Assembly (NCBI GenBank): GCA_913060815.1
Contig: CAJXSZ010000001.1
Location: 62,001-126,000, forward strand
DNA: 64,000 nt
DNA from: an uncultured Sulfitobacter sp.
GTDB taxonomy: Bacteria; Pseudomonadota; Alphaproteobacteria; Rhodobacterales; Rhodobacteraceae
Reading direction: 5' to 3'
The notes under the pieces are model-generated. The model saw nothing but the letters and a program-made list of their open reading frames with translations, had not been told where the DNA came from and did not search any database. The position numbers and the translations under genes are program-made. This document shows positions 45,998 to 50,794 of the stretch, piece by piece (position 1 is the first letter of the stretch; each line of letters starts with the position of its first letter).

Positions 45998-46045
45998 GTC
46001 TGGGTTCCAGACATGCGCCACGGTAAATTCCGTGATGTGCGAGGG

Positions 46046-46080
46046 AAGGGTGAGCTGGTGACAGCTCGCCCTTTCTTTTT
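46046..46080 (+). terminator. Intrinsic terminator after phaP
   Basis: AAGGGTGAGCTG - GTGA - CAGCTCGCCCTT, a 12 bp stem with one G-T wobble, followed by TCTTTTT. Lies 49 nt after the phasin stop and before the phaR promoter, so phaR is transcribed separately. Confidence 0.88.
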
Positions 46081-46098
46081 GCGTATGCGGCGTCTAGG

Positions 46099-46109
46099 CT
46101 GCACTGCAG
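46099..46109 (+). promoter_or_regulatory. PhaR operator before phaR (autoregulation)
   Basis: Perfect CTGC-ACT-GCAG site, 23 nt before the phaR start. Its place at the likely transcription start suggests that PhaR represses its own gene. Confidence 0.7.
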
Positions 46110-46132
46110 CACAGTGTTCGGGAGGACCCCAG

Positions 46133-46693
46133 ATGGCCGAGACAGGCAAACCCCTTCTTATCAAGAGATACGCCAGCAGGCGCCTCTACAATACCGAAAC
46201 AAGTGATTATGTGACGCTTGATGATATCGCTGGCTTTATCCGCGATGGCCGCGAGGTGCAGATCATTGATTTGAAGTCCGGTGATGATCTGACGCGTCAG
46301 TACCTTTTGCAAATCATCGCCGAGCATGAGAGCCGCGGCGAGAGCGTGCTGCCAGTGGACGTGCTCAATGATCTGGTGCGCAGCTATATGACAGGCAAAG
46401 TCAGCGTTGTGCCACAGTTCCTGCAACAGTCTTTTGACATGCTGCGCGATGGGCAGGCCAAAGTGGTCGAAAATATTAACAATATGAACCCGCTGTCCAA
46501 CATGCCCGGCTTTGATGCGATGCAAGCCCAGCAAGAAGCCTTTATGAAAGCCATGACAGGCGGGTGGGCTGGTGCCGCAGCCAAATCGGAGCCAGAGACC
46601 GACCAAGCCCCGAAGGCTGAAAGCAGCGAAGACCTCGATGCGATCAAAAAGCAGCTGGCCGACCTGCAGGATAAACTGTCAAAACTCAAGTAA
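46133..46693 (+). CDS. phaR: Polyhydroxyalkanoate synthesis repressor PhaR
   Basis: DNA-binding repressor of 186 residues that also binds PHB and so senses granules. The N-terminal DNA-binding domain is unmistakable: LLIKRYASRRLYNTETSDYVTL and GREVQIIDLKSGDDLTRQYLLQII. The middle is the accumulation-regulator domain, and the C-terminus is a helix EDLDAIKKQLADLQDKLSKLK. GGAGG sits 7 nt before ATG 46133. Its native terminator is split by the mobile element. Confidence 0.95.
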   Translation: MAETGKPLLIKRYASRRLYNTETSDYVTLDDIAGFIRDGREVQIIDLKSGDDLTRQYLLQIIAEHESRGESVLPVDVLNDLVRSYMTGKVSVVPQFLQQSFDMLRDGQAKVVENINNMNPLSNMPGFDAMQAQQEAFMKAMTGGWAGAAAKSEPETDQAPKAESSEDLDAIKKQLADLQDKLSKLK

Positions 46694-46714: not shown

Positions 46715-46724
46715 AAAAGGCAGG
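46715..46724 (+). terminator. Left arm of the split phaR/puuB terminator
   Basis: AAAAGGCAGG, 22 nt after the phaR stop. Its partner CCTGCCTTTTT lies at 49464-49474, beyond the 2.7 kb insertion. Removing the insertion and one TTACT copy restores a 10 bp stem, 6 nt loop and T run, T-rich in both directions, suited to convergent phaR and the PuuB-like gene. Confidence 0.8.
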
Positions 46725-46725
46725 G

Positions 46726-46730
46726 TTACT
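46726..46730 (+). repeat. Target-site duplication, left copy (TTACT)
   Basis: TTACT immediately outside the left terminal repeat; the same five bases follow the right terminal repeat at 49459-49463. Confidence 0.8.
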
Positions 46731-46758
46731 CCCCAGCCCTTTGCATTTCGTGGTGCAG
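46731..46758 (+). repeat. Left 28 bp terminal inverted repeat
   Basis: Exact reverse complement of 49431-49458; outermost bases CCCCAGCCC. Identity stops one base further in, which marks the true end of the repeat. Confidence 0.92.
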
Positions 46759-46788
46759 GGTCTGCATAAAGCAGATCCTGCACTTTTT
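46753..46788 (+). terminator. Element-borne intrinsic terminator facing phaR
   Basis: GTGCAGGGTCTGC - ATAAA - GCAGATCCTGCAC, a 13 bp stem with one G-T pair, followed by TTTTTAT. It begins inside the left terminal repeat. It would stop phaR transcripts entering the element and so replace the terminator that the insertion destroyed, while also shielding the passenger genes. Confidence 0.85.
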
Positions 46789-46841
46789 ATATATTTGGAA
46801 CGGCACCATATACTCATTGAAGCTGTCAATAGGAGGTGCCA

Positions 46842-47438
46842 TTGATCGACTTGAAAAGCCCTGAAGCATTTCGCATAGTTCTCTACTTCGTCGTTCCTGG
46901 GCTTGTAGCGGTTTTCTTCCGAGCGCAGTTCTTGTCAGGAAGGATGCAAAAGCACTCCGACGCCATTTTGACATATTTTTCTGTTTCGATCGTTTACTGG
47001 TCGATGCTTACAATGGCAGGGATTTCTCCTGCTACAGTTTCGGATAACCCCTTTATATCATTTGCTGTAACACTTATCGGGCCGATGGTTGTGGGTTGTG
47101 CTCTTGGGTTAAACGCAAGACTTGATGTTCTTCGAGGCCTCCTTCGGAAGATCGGCCTGAATCCGGTGCATGCGACCGCGACTGCTTGGGATTGGAAGTT
47201 GAGCAGGACTACCCCAAGATATGTGATTGTTTCACTTACAGATGGGGTCACCGTTGCAGGATTATATGACCAGAGATCTTTTTCATCGAGTGATCCTTTA
47301 GATCGCGATCTCTTTCTGGAGAAAGTCTACGAAATTCCAGATCAAGGGCTCTGGGAAGAAGTGCCTGGAAAAGAAATTCTCATCCGCGCGGCCGAAATCA
47401 AATACATTGAGTTTTTACCGATAATCAACAAGGAGTGA
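46842..47438 (+). CDS. DUF6338-family membrane protein (element passenger)
   Basis: The 198-residue protein has three N-terminal membrane helices (IVLYFVVPGLVAVFF, ILTYFSVSIVYWSMLTMAGI, FISFAVTLIGPMVVGCALGL). A small beta-rich cytoplasmic domain follows with YVIVSLTDGVTVAGLYDQRSFSSSDPLDRDLFLEKVY, the DUF6338 hallmark. AGGAGG at 46831-46836 is 5 nt before TTG 46842, which I take as the start; a GTG at 46836 lies within the site. Function of DUF6338 is unknown; genes of this family turn up in accessory regions. A gene for a GYQP-repeat peptide follows after 6 nt. Confidence 0.75.
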   Translation: MIDLKSPEAFRIVLYFVVPGLVAVFFRAQFLSGRMQKHSDAILTYFSVSIVYWSMLTMAGISPATVSDNPFISFAVTLIGPMVVGCALGLNARLDVLRGLLRKIGLNPVHATATAWDWKLSRTTPRYVIVSLTDGVTVAGLYDQRSFSSSDPLDRDLFLEKVYEIPDQGLWEEVPGKEILIRAAEIKYIEFLPIINKE

Positions 47439-47444
47439 TCGAAA

Positions 47445-47605
47445 TGACAGAAAAAAAGCAAGACACCACGCCAAGAGAAGAACGCGGCTACCAGCCATCG
47501 TCGCAACCAAGATTTAATCCTCAAAATGGATATCAACCGACAACAGGCTCCGCTGAAAAACCTACACCTCCATCGGGCGGAACCTCCGTCTCAAAGAAAC
47601 CATGA
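47445..47605 (+). CDS. Tiny GYQP-repeat protein requiring a -1 frameshift
   Basis: ATG 47445 is 6 nt after the DUF6338 stop, with AAGGAG 8 nt upstream. The zero frame gives MTEKK and then an unlikely basic sequence to a stop at 47613. Slipping back one base on A_AAA_AAG (47453-47459), the textbook heptamer, gives a 53-residue hydrophilic protein. It has two GYQP repeats (RGYQPSSQP, NGYQPTTGS) and a Pro/Ser/Lys tail (PTPPSGGTSVSKKP). That frame has no start codon of its own. Short GYQP proteins next to DUF6338 genes are something I recall but cannot check. Programmed shift, indel mutation and sequencing error in the A7 run all fit. Confidence 0.6.
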
Positions 47606-47620
47606 ACTCCCGTAGGTAAC

Positions 47621-49350
47621 TTACTCAAAGAACTCGCTGAGGCGCATCTTGCCACGAGCAAGCCCAAGCTTCATCGCAGGTGTCTCTTTCGTCTTTGATG
47701 AGCCGATCCAGTTATGAACGAACCGATAGATTTCGATGATTTTCACCATTGTTTCAGGGTTATAGAGATAATGGCGATCCCAAGTGCGACCGTTTCCGCT
47801 GGGGGTGTGGGCGGGTCGCGCAGCGAAACGGATGTTTGAGCGCACCTTGTGGAAGTAGGAATCCACGCTTCGCAGCGTCGCGAGCCGCATCAGTCGTGCG
47901 CGTCGATCGGGCGCCATGTCATGGCGGTCGGTTATAATACGGATGTGGCGGTGCGGCTCGCTTTTGGTATGGAATGGCCACGCGAAGGGCTCGGCAGGCA
48001 AATGTCCCTGTAAGAGCCCCTCGATGGCCGTATCAGTATGGAGCAACTTGTCATCCATCTCGAGTGCACCCCATTGCGAGCGAGATATTCCAGTTGCGAG
48101 TTCGAGAGCTGTCTTACCATCACCGACAAGCATATTCCGTTGGTCATTGGACTTGTGCTTGTCGAAGTTGACAACGATGACATCGGCACGAGCCTGCTTC
48201 ACCCACATCGCGAATGCCGAAACAAAAGACAAAGCCAAGCCAGAATCGGCATCCAACACGAAGACAAACCGTTCGCTTCCTTTACCCAAGCAGTGGCGCA
48301 GGTAAAAAGCGTGAGAGAGTTGTGCTATATCCTGGCGCATTAGGGAGCCACGGTGCGGTAGTTGCAAGTCAAGATCCACATCAGGGGCTTCCAGTGGATG
48401 GATCTGGACACCTCTGGTGATTTTGTCGAGGTGGATCTTGAACTCAGTTTCTGACCAGACCCGTGCTTGACTTCGGAAAGCTCGTGGCAAAGAAAAATCA
48501 CCCGCCGCCGTCATTTGTGCCTCGATGTCTGCGAGTTCTACGCTGGGATCGAGCCCAAGATGTGCCGCCATGATGTAGCCGGTATTGGCGTGGGCGCTGC
48601 ATAGGTGGTGCACCGCGATCTGTGCGCGGGTCTTCTTGTTTGGCCAGTTGAGATGAAGTGTCTGGGAATCGGTTGCGAACCGGCGCCCTTTCGCGTTCCA
48701 ATCGACAGTCTCAAAAGACCCTTCTCTTCGTGCGGTGAGATCCACGACGCGGTCGTATATGAAGTCTATTTTGCGATAGACATCCCGAGGGCAGAGACCT
48801 GTGAAATCACTAATCTTTGAGATTGGCATACCGTTAGTAATCATCCAAAGAACCTCGCGGTTCGCACTGCTTCGGTGCTGTTTCCGAATTCGTGACCCCA
48901 CCGTGAATGAGGTGAGGCAGGATTTACATTTCCAGCGCTGCGTCCCTGCCGCTGTGCGACCTGATTTCCTATATTTGTTGGGGGCCTCGGAAAGCAGCTT
49001 TTGATGGTTCTCACAGGCTTGGTTTGGGCAGAAATCCCGCGGGGCTTCTGGTTGAAACGCCCACGAAGCCTTCGATACTCCTCGACAACTGCCGCATTGT
49101 TCTTGATGATCGAGAACTTACTACAAGATCCGCATTTGAAGGTCTTGTCGTCTCCAGCGCCGACTACCTCTCCGCGAGGAAGGTTTGATTTGACTTTTGC
49201 TGAAGGACGTCCTTGTATTATGTAGGGATCTGGTGGTTCAGCGAAAAGTTTGCACTGTGGATTTCGACAGAAGTTTACATCTATCCCGAAACTGGGGAAT
49301 GGCAGCCTGCGTTTTAGGGCTGGCGGACAAATAATCGTGGGGGCAAGCAT
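47621..49350 (-). pseudogene. Two-zinc-ribbon transposase, frameshifted
   Basis: The first part (49350 to about 49050) has a zinc ribbon FCRNPQC...FKCGSCSKFSII. Then the frame must shift by -1 to continue as RDFCPNQACENH and RWKCKSCLTSFTVGSRIRKQHR (second ribbon), an HTH (MPISKISDFTGLCPRDVYRKIDFI) and a catalytic RNase H-like part (FVLDADSGLALSF, DVIVVNFDKH). The C-terminus reads LRSVDSYFHKVRSNI...YNPETMVKIIEIYRFVHNWI...TPAMKLGLARGK. This C-terminal wording is that of a widespread proteobacterial transposase group. The zero frame runs to 48841; the -1 frame is open from about 49121. A T_TTC at the junction is a weak slip site. Either a decayed gene or programmed frameshifting as in many IS elements. 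Confidence 0.75.
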
Positions 49351-49430
49351 ACTTTTTCCCTCGGAAAAAACCACATATTGTGGCTATCAAGGGAAAGATT
49401 GGCCAAAATCTGGCCAACCTAAGTTTTTTT

Positions 49431-49458
49431 CTGCACCACGAAATGCAAAGGGCTGGGG
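49431..49458 (-). repeat. Right 28 bp terminal inverted repeat
   Basis: Exact inverted copy of 46731-46758. Just inside it is a minus-strand hairpin (TTGGCCA/TGGCCAA, 49399-49417) followed by TCTTT, a weak terminator for transcripts coming from the PuuB-like gene. Confidence 0.92.
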
Positions 49459-49474
49459 TTACTCCTGCCTTTTT
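49459..49474. terminator. Right TTACT copy plus right arm of the split terminator
   Basis: TTACT (49459-49463) repeats the bases left of the element; CCTGCCTTTTT (49464-49474) is the complement of AAAAGGCAGG at 46715-46724. Together they show the insertion point was the terminator loop. Confidence 0.8.
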
Positions 49475-49489
49475 GCATTTCCATGGGCG

Positions 49490-50794
49490 CTATATCCCCA
49501 GCTTGTCACGCATTGAGTACCAGCTCATCGCTAGAACCAGCAGCGGAGAGCGTATTGCCGGCCCACCTGGAAACGGGGTGTTGGGCATCGCGGCCATCGT
49601 GTCGAACCCGTCACCATCTCCTTGGATCGCGTGCGCCATCAATTGGCCCGCGTGGGTCGCGGTGCCAACGCCGTGACCTGAATACCCCGAGGCGGACAGG
49701 ATGTTCTTCGCAGGCCGCGTAAGATAGGGCAGGCGCTTCATCGTGATGCCAAGGGTGCCGCCCCACGCATAGTCGATTTTCACATCCGCCAGCTGCGGGA
49801 AGATTACCGACAAGGGCTTGCGCACTTTGGCTGCGATATCGCTGGGAAAGCGGTAGCCATAGCTTTCGCCACCTCCGAAAAGCAGGCGGCCATCATGGCT
49901 CAGGCGGAAGTAATTCACGACAAAGCGGCTATCGGCCACAGCCACATCGCGGGGCAGGACATCTGCGATGCGCTCCCCCAACGGCTCGGTCGCGACGATG
50001 AAGTTATTGATAGGCATCACGCGGGCGGCAACCTTGCGGTTCAGCCCGCCAAGATAGCCGTTGCAGGCAAGGACCACATGATCCGCCTCCACATGGCCCG
50101 CGTCGGTGCGCACGGTCGCAGGGGTGCCTTCGTCGATATGGTGCACGGCGGAGCGTTCATGGATGCGCACACCTGCTGCCACACAGGCCCGCGCCAGCCC
50201 CAGCGCAAAGTTCAGCGGATGCAAATGCGCCGCCCCCATATCCAGCATCCCGCCGCGATAGTCGGGGGAAGGGCAGACCGATTGCAACGCTGCGCGGTCC
50301 AGCGTCTCGATTTGGTTGTAGCCATAGTTGCGCGCCAGATAGTCGGTATAGCCATGCAGCTGGCGCACTTCGGCGTCCGTTGATCCCATCCACGCCACAC
50401 CAGGTTTGAGGTGCGCGTCGATGTCATGCTTGGCAATCAGGGATTTGACCAGCGCCTTGGCATCTTCGGCCAACGCCCAGAGCTTTGCGCCCTCCGCATC
50501 GCCCATAAGCGCATCGAGCGCGTCCTGCTCCATTCGCTGGCCCGAGCCGAGCTGACCGCCGTTTCGCCCGGACGCGCCAAAGCCCACGCGCTGGGCATCC
50601 AGCAGCACGACATCACGCCCCGCTTGCGCCAGATGCAGCGCGGCCGAAAGCCCTGTGTAGCCTGCGCCGATCACGCAAACATCTGCCTTTTGTGCACCCT
50701 TCAGTGGGGCGAACGGCTCAAGCGGCGTCGCTGTGGCGGCATACCAGCTGGGTGGATATTCCCCGCGGCGGTCGTTGGAGTACAGCAGGTTCAT
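49490..50794 (-). CDS. FAD-dependent amine oxidoreductase, PuuB-like
   Basis: Protein of 434 residues resembling gamma-glutamylputrescine oxidase: N-terminal SNDRRGEYPPSWYAATA, FAD motif VCVIGAGYTGLSAALHLAQAG (about 40-60), FGASGRNGGQLGSGQR, and C-terminal YSGHGVGTATHAGQLMA. It oxidises a gamma-glutamylated amine in the glutamylation pathway. Start codon overlaps the stop of the ligase gene (ATGA). Last gene of the cluster, now bordered by the mobile element. Confidence 0.8.
   Translation of the reverse strand: MNLLYSNDRRGEYPPSWYAATATPLEPFAPLKGAQKADVCVIGAGYTGLSAALHLAQAGRDVVLLDAQRVGFGASGRNGGQLGSGQRMEQDALDALMGDAEGAKLWALAEDAKALVKSLIAKHDIDAHLKPGVAWMGSTDAEVRQLHGYTDYLARNYGYNQIETLDRAALQSVCPSPDYRGGMLDMGAAHLHPLNFALGLARACVAAGVRIHERSAVHHIDEGTPATVRTDAGHVEADHVVLACNGYLGGLNRKVAARVMPINNFIVATEPLGERIADVLPRDVAVADSRFVVNYFRLSHDGRLLFGGGESYGYRFPSDIAAKVRKPLSVIFPQLADVKIDYAWGGTLGITMKRLPYLTRPAKNILSASGYSGHGVGTATHAGQLMAHAIQGDGDGFDTMAAMPNTPFPGGPAIRSPLLVLAMSWYSMRDKLGI

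Follow-up and report, generated by a model that had tools for sequence, protein, structure and literature searches.

The 64,000-nucleotide stretch of DNA from an uncultured Sulfitobacter sp. analysed here (contig CAJXSZ010000001.1, positions 62,001 to 126,000; hereafter the window) contains a mobile element at positions 46733–49456. The element is positioned between the convergent genes phaR (46013–46693, which matches TIGR01848) and that of a PuuB-like FAD-dependent oxidoreductase (49490–50794), and it is the only copy in its genome. It is bounded by perfect 26-bp inverted repeats, the left one, CCAGCCCTTTGCATTTCGTGGTGCAG, at 46733–46758 on the plus strand and the right one at 49431–49456 on the minus strand. 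Exact 9-bp target duplications GGTTACTCC adjoin the repeats at 46724–46732 and 49457–49465. The duplications are in turn flanked by the two halves of a split host terminator: AAAAGGCAG at 46715–46723, downstream of phaR and part of an inverted pair, and TGCCTTTTTG at 49466–49475, downstream of the oxidoreductase gene; neither the duplications nor the terminator halves are assigned to a strand. Joining the flanks of the element restores AAAAGGCAGGGTTACTCCTGCCTTTTT, which has the features of a bidirectional intrinsic terminator. The hairpin score of this rebuilt empty site has a p value of 0.0012 relative to 1,684 nearby control positions.

The borders of the element are ambiguous in the window copy alone, since GG and CC on the two sides of the target happen to extend the inverted repeat to 28 bp. 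The initial annotation of the window had described perfect 28-bp inverted ends, boundaries at 46731–49458, and a TTACT direct repeat outside of them. Its perfect ends and flanking repeat are retained here, with changed lengths. The copy of the element from Sulfitobacter dubius (L005/L078), the transposase of which is 81% identical to that of the window, has a 26-bp inverted repeat starting with CCAGCC and a 9-bp duplication CCCCCGAGA. These borders fit the window exactly and settle the 26-bp ends and 9-bp duplication of its element, so that a relative was needed to place the boundaries, which the annotation had regarded as evident from the window. The target that it named was correct, as excision rebuilds the same complete terminator between phaR and the PuuB-like gene under either reading of the borders.

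It is highly probable that the window element is a copy of a family of elements that have a zinc-ribbon transposase, generate duplications of 9–10 bp, and are mostly inserted in the loops of intrinsic terminators. Ends and duplications of family members were sought without regard to hairpins; one end search presupposed CCAGCC with at most one mismatch, and the other end searches presupposed no end sequence. After the merging of duplicates (L005 = L078, L048 = L090, L085 = L039, L146 = L082, L038 = L076, L040 = L064, L041 = L063, L042 = L067, and L044 = L083), 37 non-redundant copies remained that combine inverted ends with a duplication of 9–10 bp. The duplication is exact in 36 copies and has one mismatch in L090, where the second row was used in place of the top row, a 14-kb chance-looking end pair; because the copies were selected for a duplication, these counts are not a measure of the fraction of elements that lack one. 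At locus L064 (7175–10463), two elements are arranged in tandem, one of 698 bp that lacks a transposase and one of 2,582 bp, with one shared copy of a 9-bp duplication between them.

A hairpin with a score of at least 18 and its axis within 3 nt of the centre of the duplication is present at 28 of the 37 insertion sites, compared to 1,233 of 60,639 flank positions (2.03%) and 183 of 12,935 non-coding flank positions (1.41%). The target therefore recurs across genomes, as the initial annotation had expected. When an A or T tract (at least four of seven nucleotides) was required in addition to the hairpin, 25 of 37 sites qualified, compared to 0.23% of all flank positions and 0.50% of the non-coding ones. 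A simpler test of the first 28 sites gave a similar picture: perfect stems of at least 6 bp occur at 22 sites, compared to 13.3% of the random positions (n = 4,200) and 11.7% of the intergenic ones (n = 863), and stems accompanied by a tract occur at 17 sites, compared to 2.2% and 3.8%, respectively. The best hairpin within 60 nt on each side is at most 1 nt from the centre of the duplication in 25 of the 37 copies, and at most 3 nt from it in 29. Most copies are thus located on the dyad axis of intrinsic terminators, typically no more than 1 nt from the middle of the hairpin, and nothing has been deleted from the target. Such sites are also occupied by distant members of the family. The relative from a Pontibacillus plasmid (L062), which is 21% identical to the first row of the family transposase alignment, A3, has ends starting with TAACGGG and sits in the terminator AAAAAAGCAAAGGGGCCCTTTGCTTTTTT with the duplication AGGGGCCCT. 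The copy in Listeria innocua plasmid pLI203 (L145, 3021–6296) has perfect ends starting with TAAGTAG and is inserted in the terminator AAAGACCCGTCTAGTTTTAGACGAGTCTTT with a 10-bp duplication CTAGTTTTAG. Other families of the phylum are represented by seven copies (L147–L153), of which all except L149 pass the hairpin threshold.

Relatives without the element provide a view of the sites before insertion, a comparison that the initial annotation had proposed for the phaR–puuB junction. Of 58 genomes of the genus, 55 contain phaR, and in 12 of the 30 loci examined, the window's own included, it adjoins the PuuB-like gene. Seven of these 12 Sulfitobacter loci contain an uninterrupted terminator-like hairpin at the junction, with runs of three to six T in L094, L095, L099, L100, L102, and L103 (the last judged by eye) and a broken run in L097. 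The remaining adjoining loci have other hairpins (L115 and L120) or gaps of 9–15 bp without a hairpin (L106, L109, and L111). The protein neighbouring the S. dubius site was found in 25 of 58 genomes, and 24 loci were examined, one of them that of S. dubius itself. In all eight relatives with the same start of the downstream gene, the terminator-like hairpin is uninterrupted (judged by eye; AAAAGGCGACCCCCGAGGGGGTCGCCTTTTTTT is one instance), and their neighbouring proteins are 96–99% identical; the other 15 loci have different downstream DNA. The empty site reads AAAAGGCGACCCCCGAGGGGGTCGCC in L162 and L164, compared to AAAAGGCGACCCCCGAGAGGGTCGCC rebuilt in L078. The uninterrupted hairpins in relatives that lack the element indicate that the terminators existed without it.

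The association with hairpins could be explained in other ways. If the terminator arms were part of the element itself, as longer ends, the apparent target would be carried along with it. The arms do flank each good copy symmetrically, but their sequences differ between copies, and the relatives L162 and L164 retain the uninterrupted terminator without the element; this explanation is already contradicted and has next to no chance of being correct. It is also very unlikely that the pattern is one of survivorship, in which insertion is random and only harmless sites, such as terminators between convergent genes, persist. Terminators are non-coding DNA in which insertion is cheap, and some copies have decayed transposases and hence are not recent. 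However, other non-coding positions should be about equally harmless, and the duplication centre is within 1 nt of the axis of the best hairpin in two thirds of the copies (25/37), whereas such a hairpin occurs at 1.4% of the 12,935 non-coding positions. A more serious contender, although we rate it as less than even, is that the transposase recognizes any GC-rich palindrome, as a dyad or a cruciform, and that terminators are hit as the common non-coding palindromes. The strong hairpins of L067 and L079 miss the A/T-tract criterion, and so does that of L148, where the A/T run was counted inside the 20-bp stem; furthermore, IS1272 and the elements that target repetitive extragenic palindromic (REP) sequences also choose palindromes. 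On the other hand, a tract is present at 25 of the 28 strong-hairpin sites, compared to 11.4% of the controls with a score of at least 18 from all flanks and 65 of 183 from non-coding flanks. This excess indicates that the A/T tract may matter to target choice; the same sample also fits the recognition of palindromes in general.

Several observations weigh against terminator-loop insertion as the rule for the whole family. Nine of the 37 sites are below the hairpin threshold, and in eight copies the distance to the best nearby hairpin exceeds 10 nt. Copies at sites without hairpins had been named by the initial annotation as evidence that would count against its proposal, and they exist in part: L054, L058, L061, L082, and L086 resemble the controls (p > 0.3), and four more (L065, L070, L074, and L149) have weak hairpins below the threshold. 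The count of enclosing base pairs in RNAfold predictions is non-discriminating (35 of 37 sites, compared to 64.6% of controls) and was not relied upon. At L064, either the second element inserted into a hairpin that was already split, or recombination produced the pair. Lastly, by the criterion applied below, neither end of 11 of the 37 elements has an inward hairpin.

Terminator-like hairpins directed inward are present just inside the ends of many elements, and this is a new observation of the present analysis. Within 130 nt of the ends, such hairpins were detected on the transposase side in 12 of the 37 elements and on the other side in 23; 26 elements have one at either end and nine at both. 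Outward hairpins near the ends were found in three (transposase side) and one (other side) of the 37 elements, and hairpins in 7 of 555 interior and 14 of 555 flank controls. An earlier count in 28 elements, with a limit of 200 nt, gave eight inward hairpins on the transposase side and 18 on the other, compared to 11 of 560 controls. The inward hairpins start 20–64 nt from the element end and vary in sequence. The window element has one at both ends. The left hairpin (46752–46784, plus strand), with a 14-bp stem and a T tail, overlaps the inner part of the left inverted repeat. The right one (49396–49420, minus strand) consists of AGGTTGGCCAGATTTTGGCCAATCT followed by TTTCCCTT and is positioned upstream of the transposase gene, as in several relatives. 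The hairpins seem to replace the split host terminator and would insulate the element.

The transposases of the family are large zinc-ribbon proteins of about 560–650 aa. The window transposase is encoded on the minus strand in two frames: a 177-aa open reading frame with the first zinc-ribbon cysteines (49374–48841) and a main frame of 446 residues with the helix-turn-helix and the presumed catalytic part (48961–47621). The frame changes near 49,050, within about 49,030–49,110, and each of the two frames matches one part of the A3 profile, positions 7–105 and 98–576, respectively. Since several relatives have a single open frame, the window copy is probably decayed and inactive; the S. dubius transposase contains an internal stop. 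Pairs of cysteines and the columns Asp228, Asp367, and Glu465/Asp497 are conserved in the alignment, which suggests a zinc-ribbon enzyme of the DDE/RNase H-like type. This assignment has to be weighed against an AlphaFold model of low confidence (mean predicted local distance difference test score, pLDDT, of 57.6), a Foldseek search with the model that gave no match at E ≤ 0.001 (best E 0.33), and an hhalign comparison of A3 to one IS1 InsB sequence that gave no match. A profile search of the PDB returned nearly exclusively zinc fingers. No credible Pfam match was found for the transposase; the sole strong one among the transposases is to N6_Mtase in L046, located towards the C terminus and beyond the homologous region. 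Matches to NCBIfam are weak and N-terminal, to models of the IS1, IS1595, IS256, IS1249, and ISL3 types, and none is to an IS1182 model. The match to the IS1-type model reaches 22–43 bits, compared to a curated cut-off of 100, and covers about 65–91 residues of the N-terminal zinc ribbon/helix-turn-helix. Where annotated, the homologues in plasmid records are called "hypothetical protein" or "insertion element protein", and a few Salinivibrio rows as "lactate dehydrogenase".

Apart from the transposase, the window element carries two passenger genes on the plus strand: one for a 200-aa DUF6338 protein (46836–47438; PF19865, E 1.6e-33) and one for a proline-rich small protein of 53 aa with GYQP motifs (47444–47605). 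The pair (46836–47605) recurs in the Ruegeria element L073, the DUF6338 protein of which is 60% identical to that of the window, and in 6 of 13 other DUF6338 loci (L186–L191), and it looks like a two-gene module. For Pseudomonas stutzeri, one report (PMC10433244) places three proline-rich small proteins in a predicted operon that also includes a DUF6338 gene. The initial annotation had linked the DUF6338 passenger to the type of target. The gene is present as described, but it is one passenger among several that can be exchanged. At the 13 other DUF6338 loci (among L186–L199, the window's own L192 excluded), the stretch examined revealed no convincing pair of element ends, and DUF6338 is therefore not bound to this transposon. 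In 28 elements, 49 candidate passenger reading frames of at least 60 aa were recognized; 20 were scanned with Pfam, and 13 of these have a match at E ≤ 0.01, that of L151 being below its Pfam cut-off. The passengers of L147 are a D12 methylase and a NotI-like enzyme, those of L148 a type IIG-like protein and a specificity subunit, that of L149 a PstI/BsuBI-like system, and those of L150 a methylase and a neighbour with a weak restriction-enzyme match. Each of these four elements contains one compact restriction-modification module, of four different types, the nuclease match in L150 being weak. Further passengers include Abi_C in L077 and GNAT in L075, among others, and L145 carries a predicted dfrG gene for trimethoprim resistance inside the element. 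Homologues of the transposase are present in 90 Enterococcus and nine Staphylococcus plasmid records; in the one plasmid examined, the Listeria one, dfrG lies beside the transposase. The passengers (DUF6338, restriction-modification, Abi, and dfrG, among others) are exchangeable and differ from copy to copy.

Transposase searches, with the window's own genome counted, gave matches in 4 of 40 relatives. Of 394 genomes of the bacterial family, 25 have the transposase, about nine of them as weak matches only, and at E ≤ 1e-20 so do 16 of the 398 genomes searched across the phylum. In a named genome collection, 30 loci were recovered, all from records that bear the name Rhodobacteraceae or that of a genus assigned to this family. 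Among viral contigs, 29 stretches matched a pattern and none encoded a relative. The ends are of the CCAGCC/CAAGCC type in most copies from Pseudomonadota and start with TAA in the two from Bacillota. The shortest members are about 1.9 kb long, with room for little beyond the transposase. Matches of the family search with E values above about 1e-8, and five of the places from the phylum search, were left out of the retrieval of longer sequence. No convincing end pair with a duplication was found at L066, L071, L076, L081, L087, L089, L092, L045, L046, L047, L049, L050, L051, L053, L055, L059, L060, L123, L124, and L154–L159, which were not counted; chance-looking end pairs at some of these loci were dropped. 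Half of a terminator is visible by eye beside the one end found in L066, L046, L060, and L081. The coverage of L052, L056, and L057 consisted of the first duplication search, which gave nothing, and an end-motif listing. Among the uncounted loci, L154–L159 are from one genus and L123 and L124 from Vibrio; their transposase relatives, for which convincing ends or duplications were not found, are possibly domesticated or belong to a different branch.

We slightly favour a broader interpretation, in which these elements constitute a previously undescribed family of Pseudomonadota and Bacillota with a transposase that reads the structure of a terminator, splits its loop at the dyad, and brings along inward terminators, giving near-neutral, sequence-independent sites throughout the genome for shuttling defence (restriction-modification, Abi) and resistance (dfrG) genes. 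A transposase dimer would recognize the symmetric hairpin or cruciform, that is, a GC-rich dyad with A and T tracts to either side, and not a base sequence. The element's own hairpins would then substitute for the split host terminator, insertion would be nearly neutral, and the passengers would be shielded from outside transcription. The shape of a terminator would be a simple cue by which a mobile element could locate numerous harmless sites that share no conserved sequence, and landing in its loop with hairpins of its own would let the element carry genes into new hosts with little harm. The target rule would predict the settling places of the carried restriction-modification modules and, in one Gram-positive copy, of a trimethoprim-resistance gene. 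It makes testable whether a transposase can recognize an extruded hairpin or a cruciform in double-stranded DNA.

Insertion into terminator hairpins was already known for some transposons, as the initial annotation had pointed out. IS1272/TnSha1 of the IS1182 family inserts in terminator stem-loops and other hairpins without primary-sequence specificity and spreads a metabolic gene, according to the reports on it (PMC4923244, PMC5678879). These describe a blunt cut, deletion of the stem-loop, and no duplication, whereas in the present family nothing is lost and the loop is duplicated over 9–10 bp. Targeting by group IIC introns also depends on stem-loops, but these are described as retroelements that insert next to the hairpin. 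They are not known to have inverted ends or a transposase of the present kind. The REP-targeting elements IS1397, ISKpn1, IS621, and ISPsy8 insert into palindromes; ISPsy8 does so on the axis of symmetry of a predicted REP hairpin and leaves a 3-bp repeat. Such elements come from families that include IS3 and IS110, and their targets are copies of one repeated sequence, unlike the different terminator used each time by the present family (PMC1525189). IS1 and IS1595 share the zinc ribbon and helix-turn-helix part, whereas the present family has CCAGCC/CAAGCC or TAA ends, a much larger transposase, and no profile match to InsB. The ends of IS1 are of the GG..TG type, and its duplications of 8–9 bp may be comparable to the 9–10 bp of the 37 copies of the present family. 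The plasmid protein of Enterococcus, Staphylococcus, and Listeria is a homologous transposase (21% identical to L043 and 55% to that of Pontibacillus), and the L. innocua plasmid element differs from the copies of Pseudomonadota in its end sequence, TAAGTAG, and its Bacillota host. No statement on the target of the element was found in the passage on dfrG of one report (PMC12540322), nor was a description of the family's target found in the open-licence literature searched; closed papers or ISfinder may hold one. What sets the present family apart from the known hairpin-targeting elements is its transposase, its ends, its duplication, and the hairpins that it carries. Transposons with hairpin targets are a known kind, and this one is unusual in its precision, its breadth, and the terminator-like hairpins that it supplies itself.

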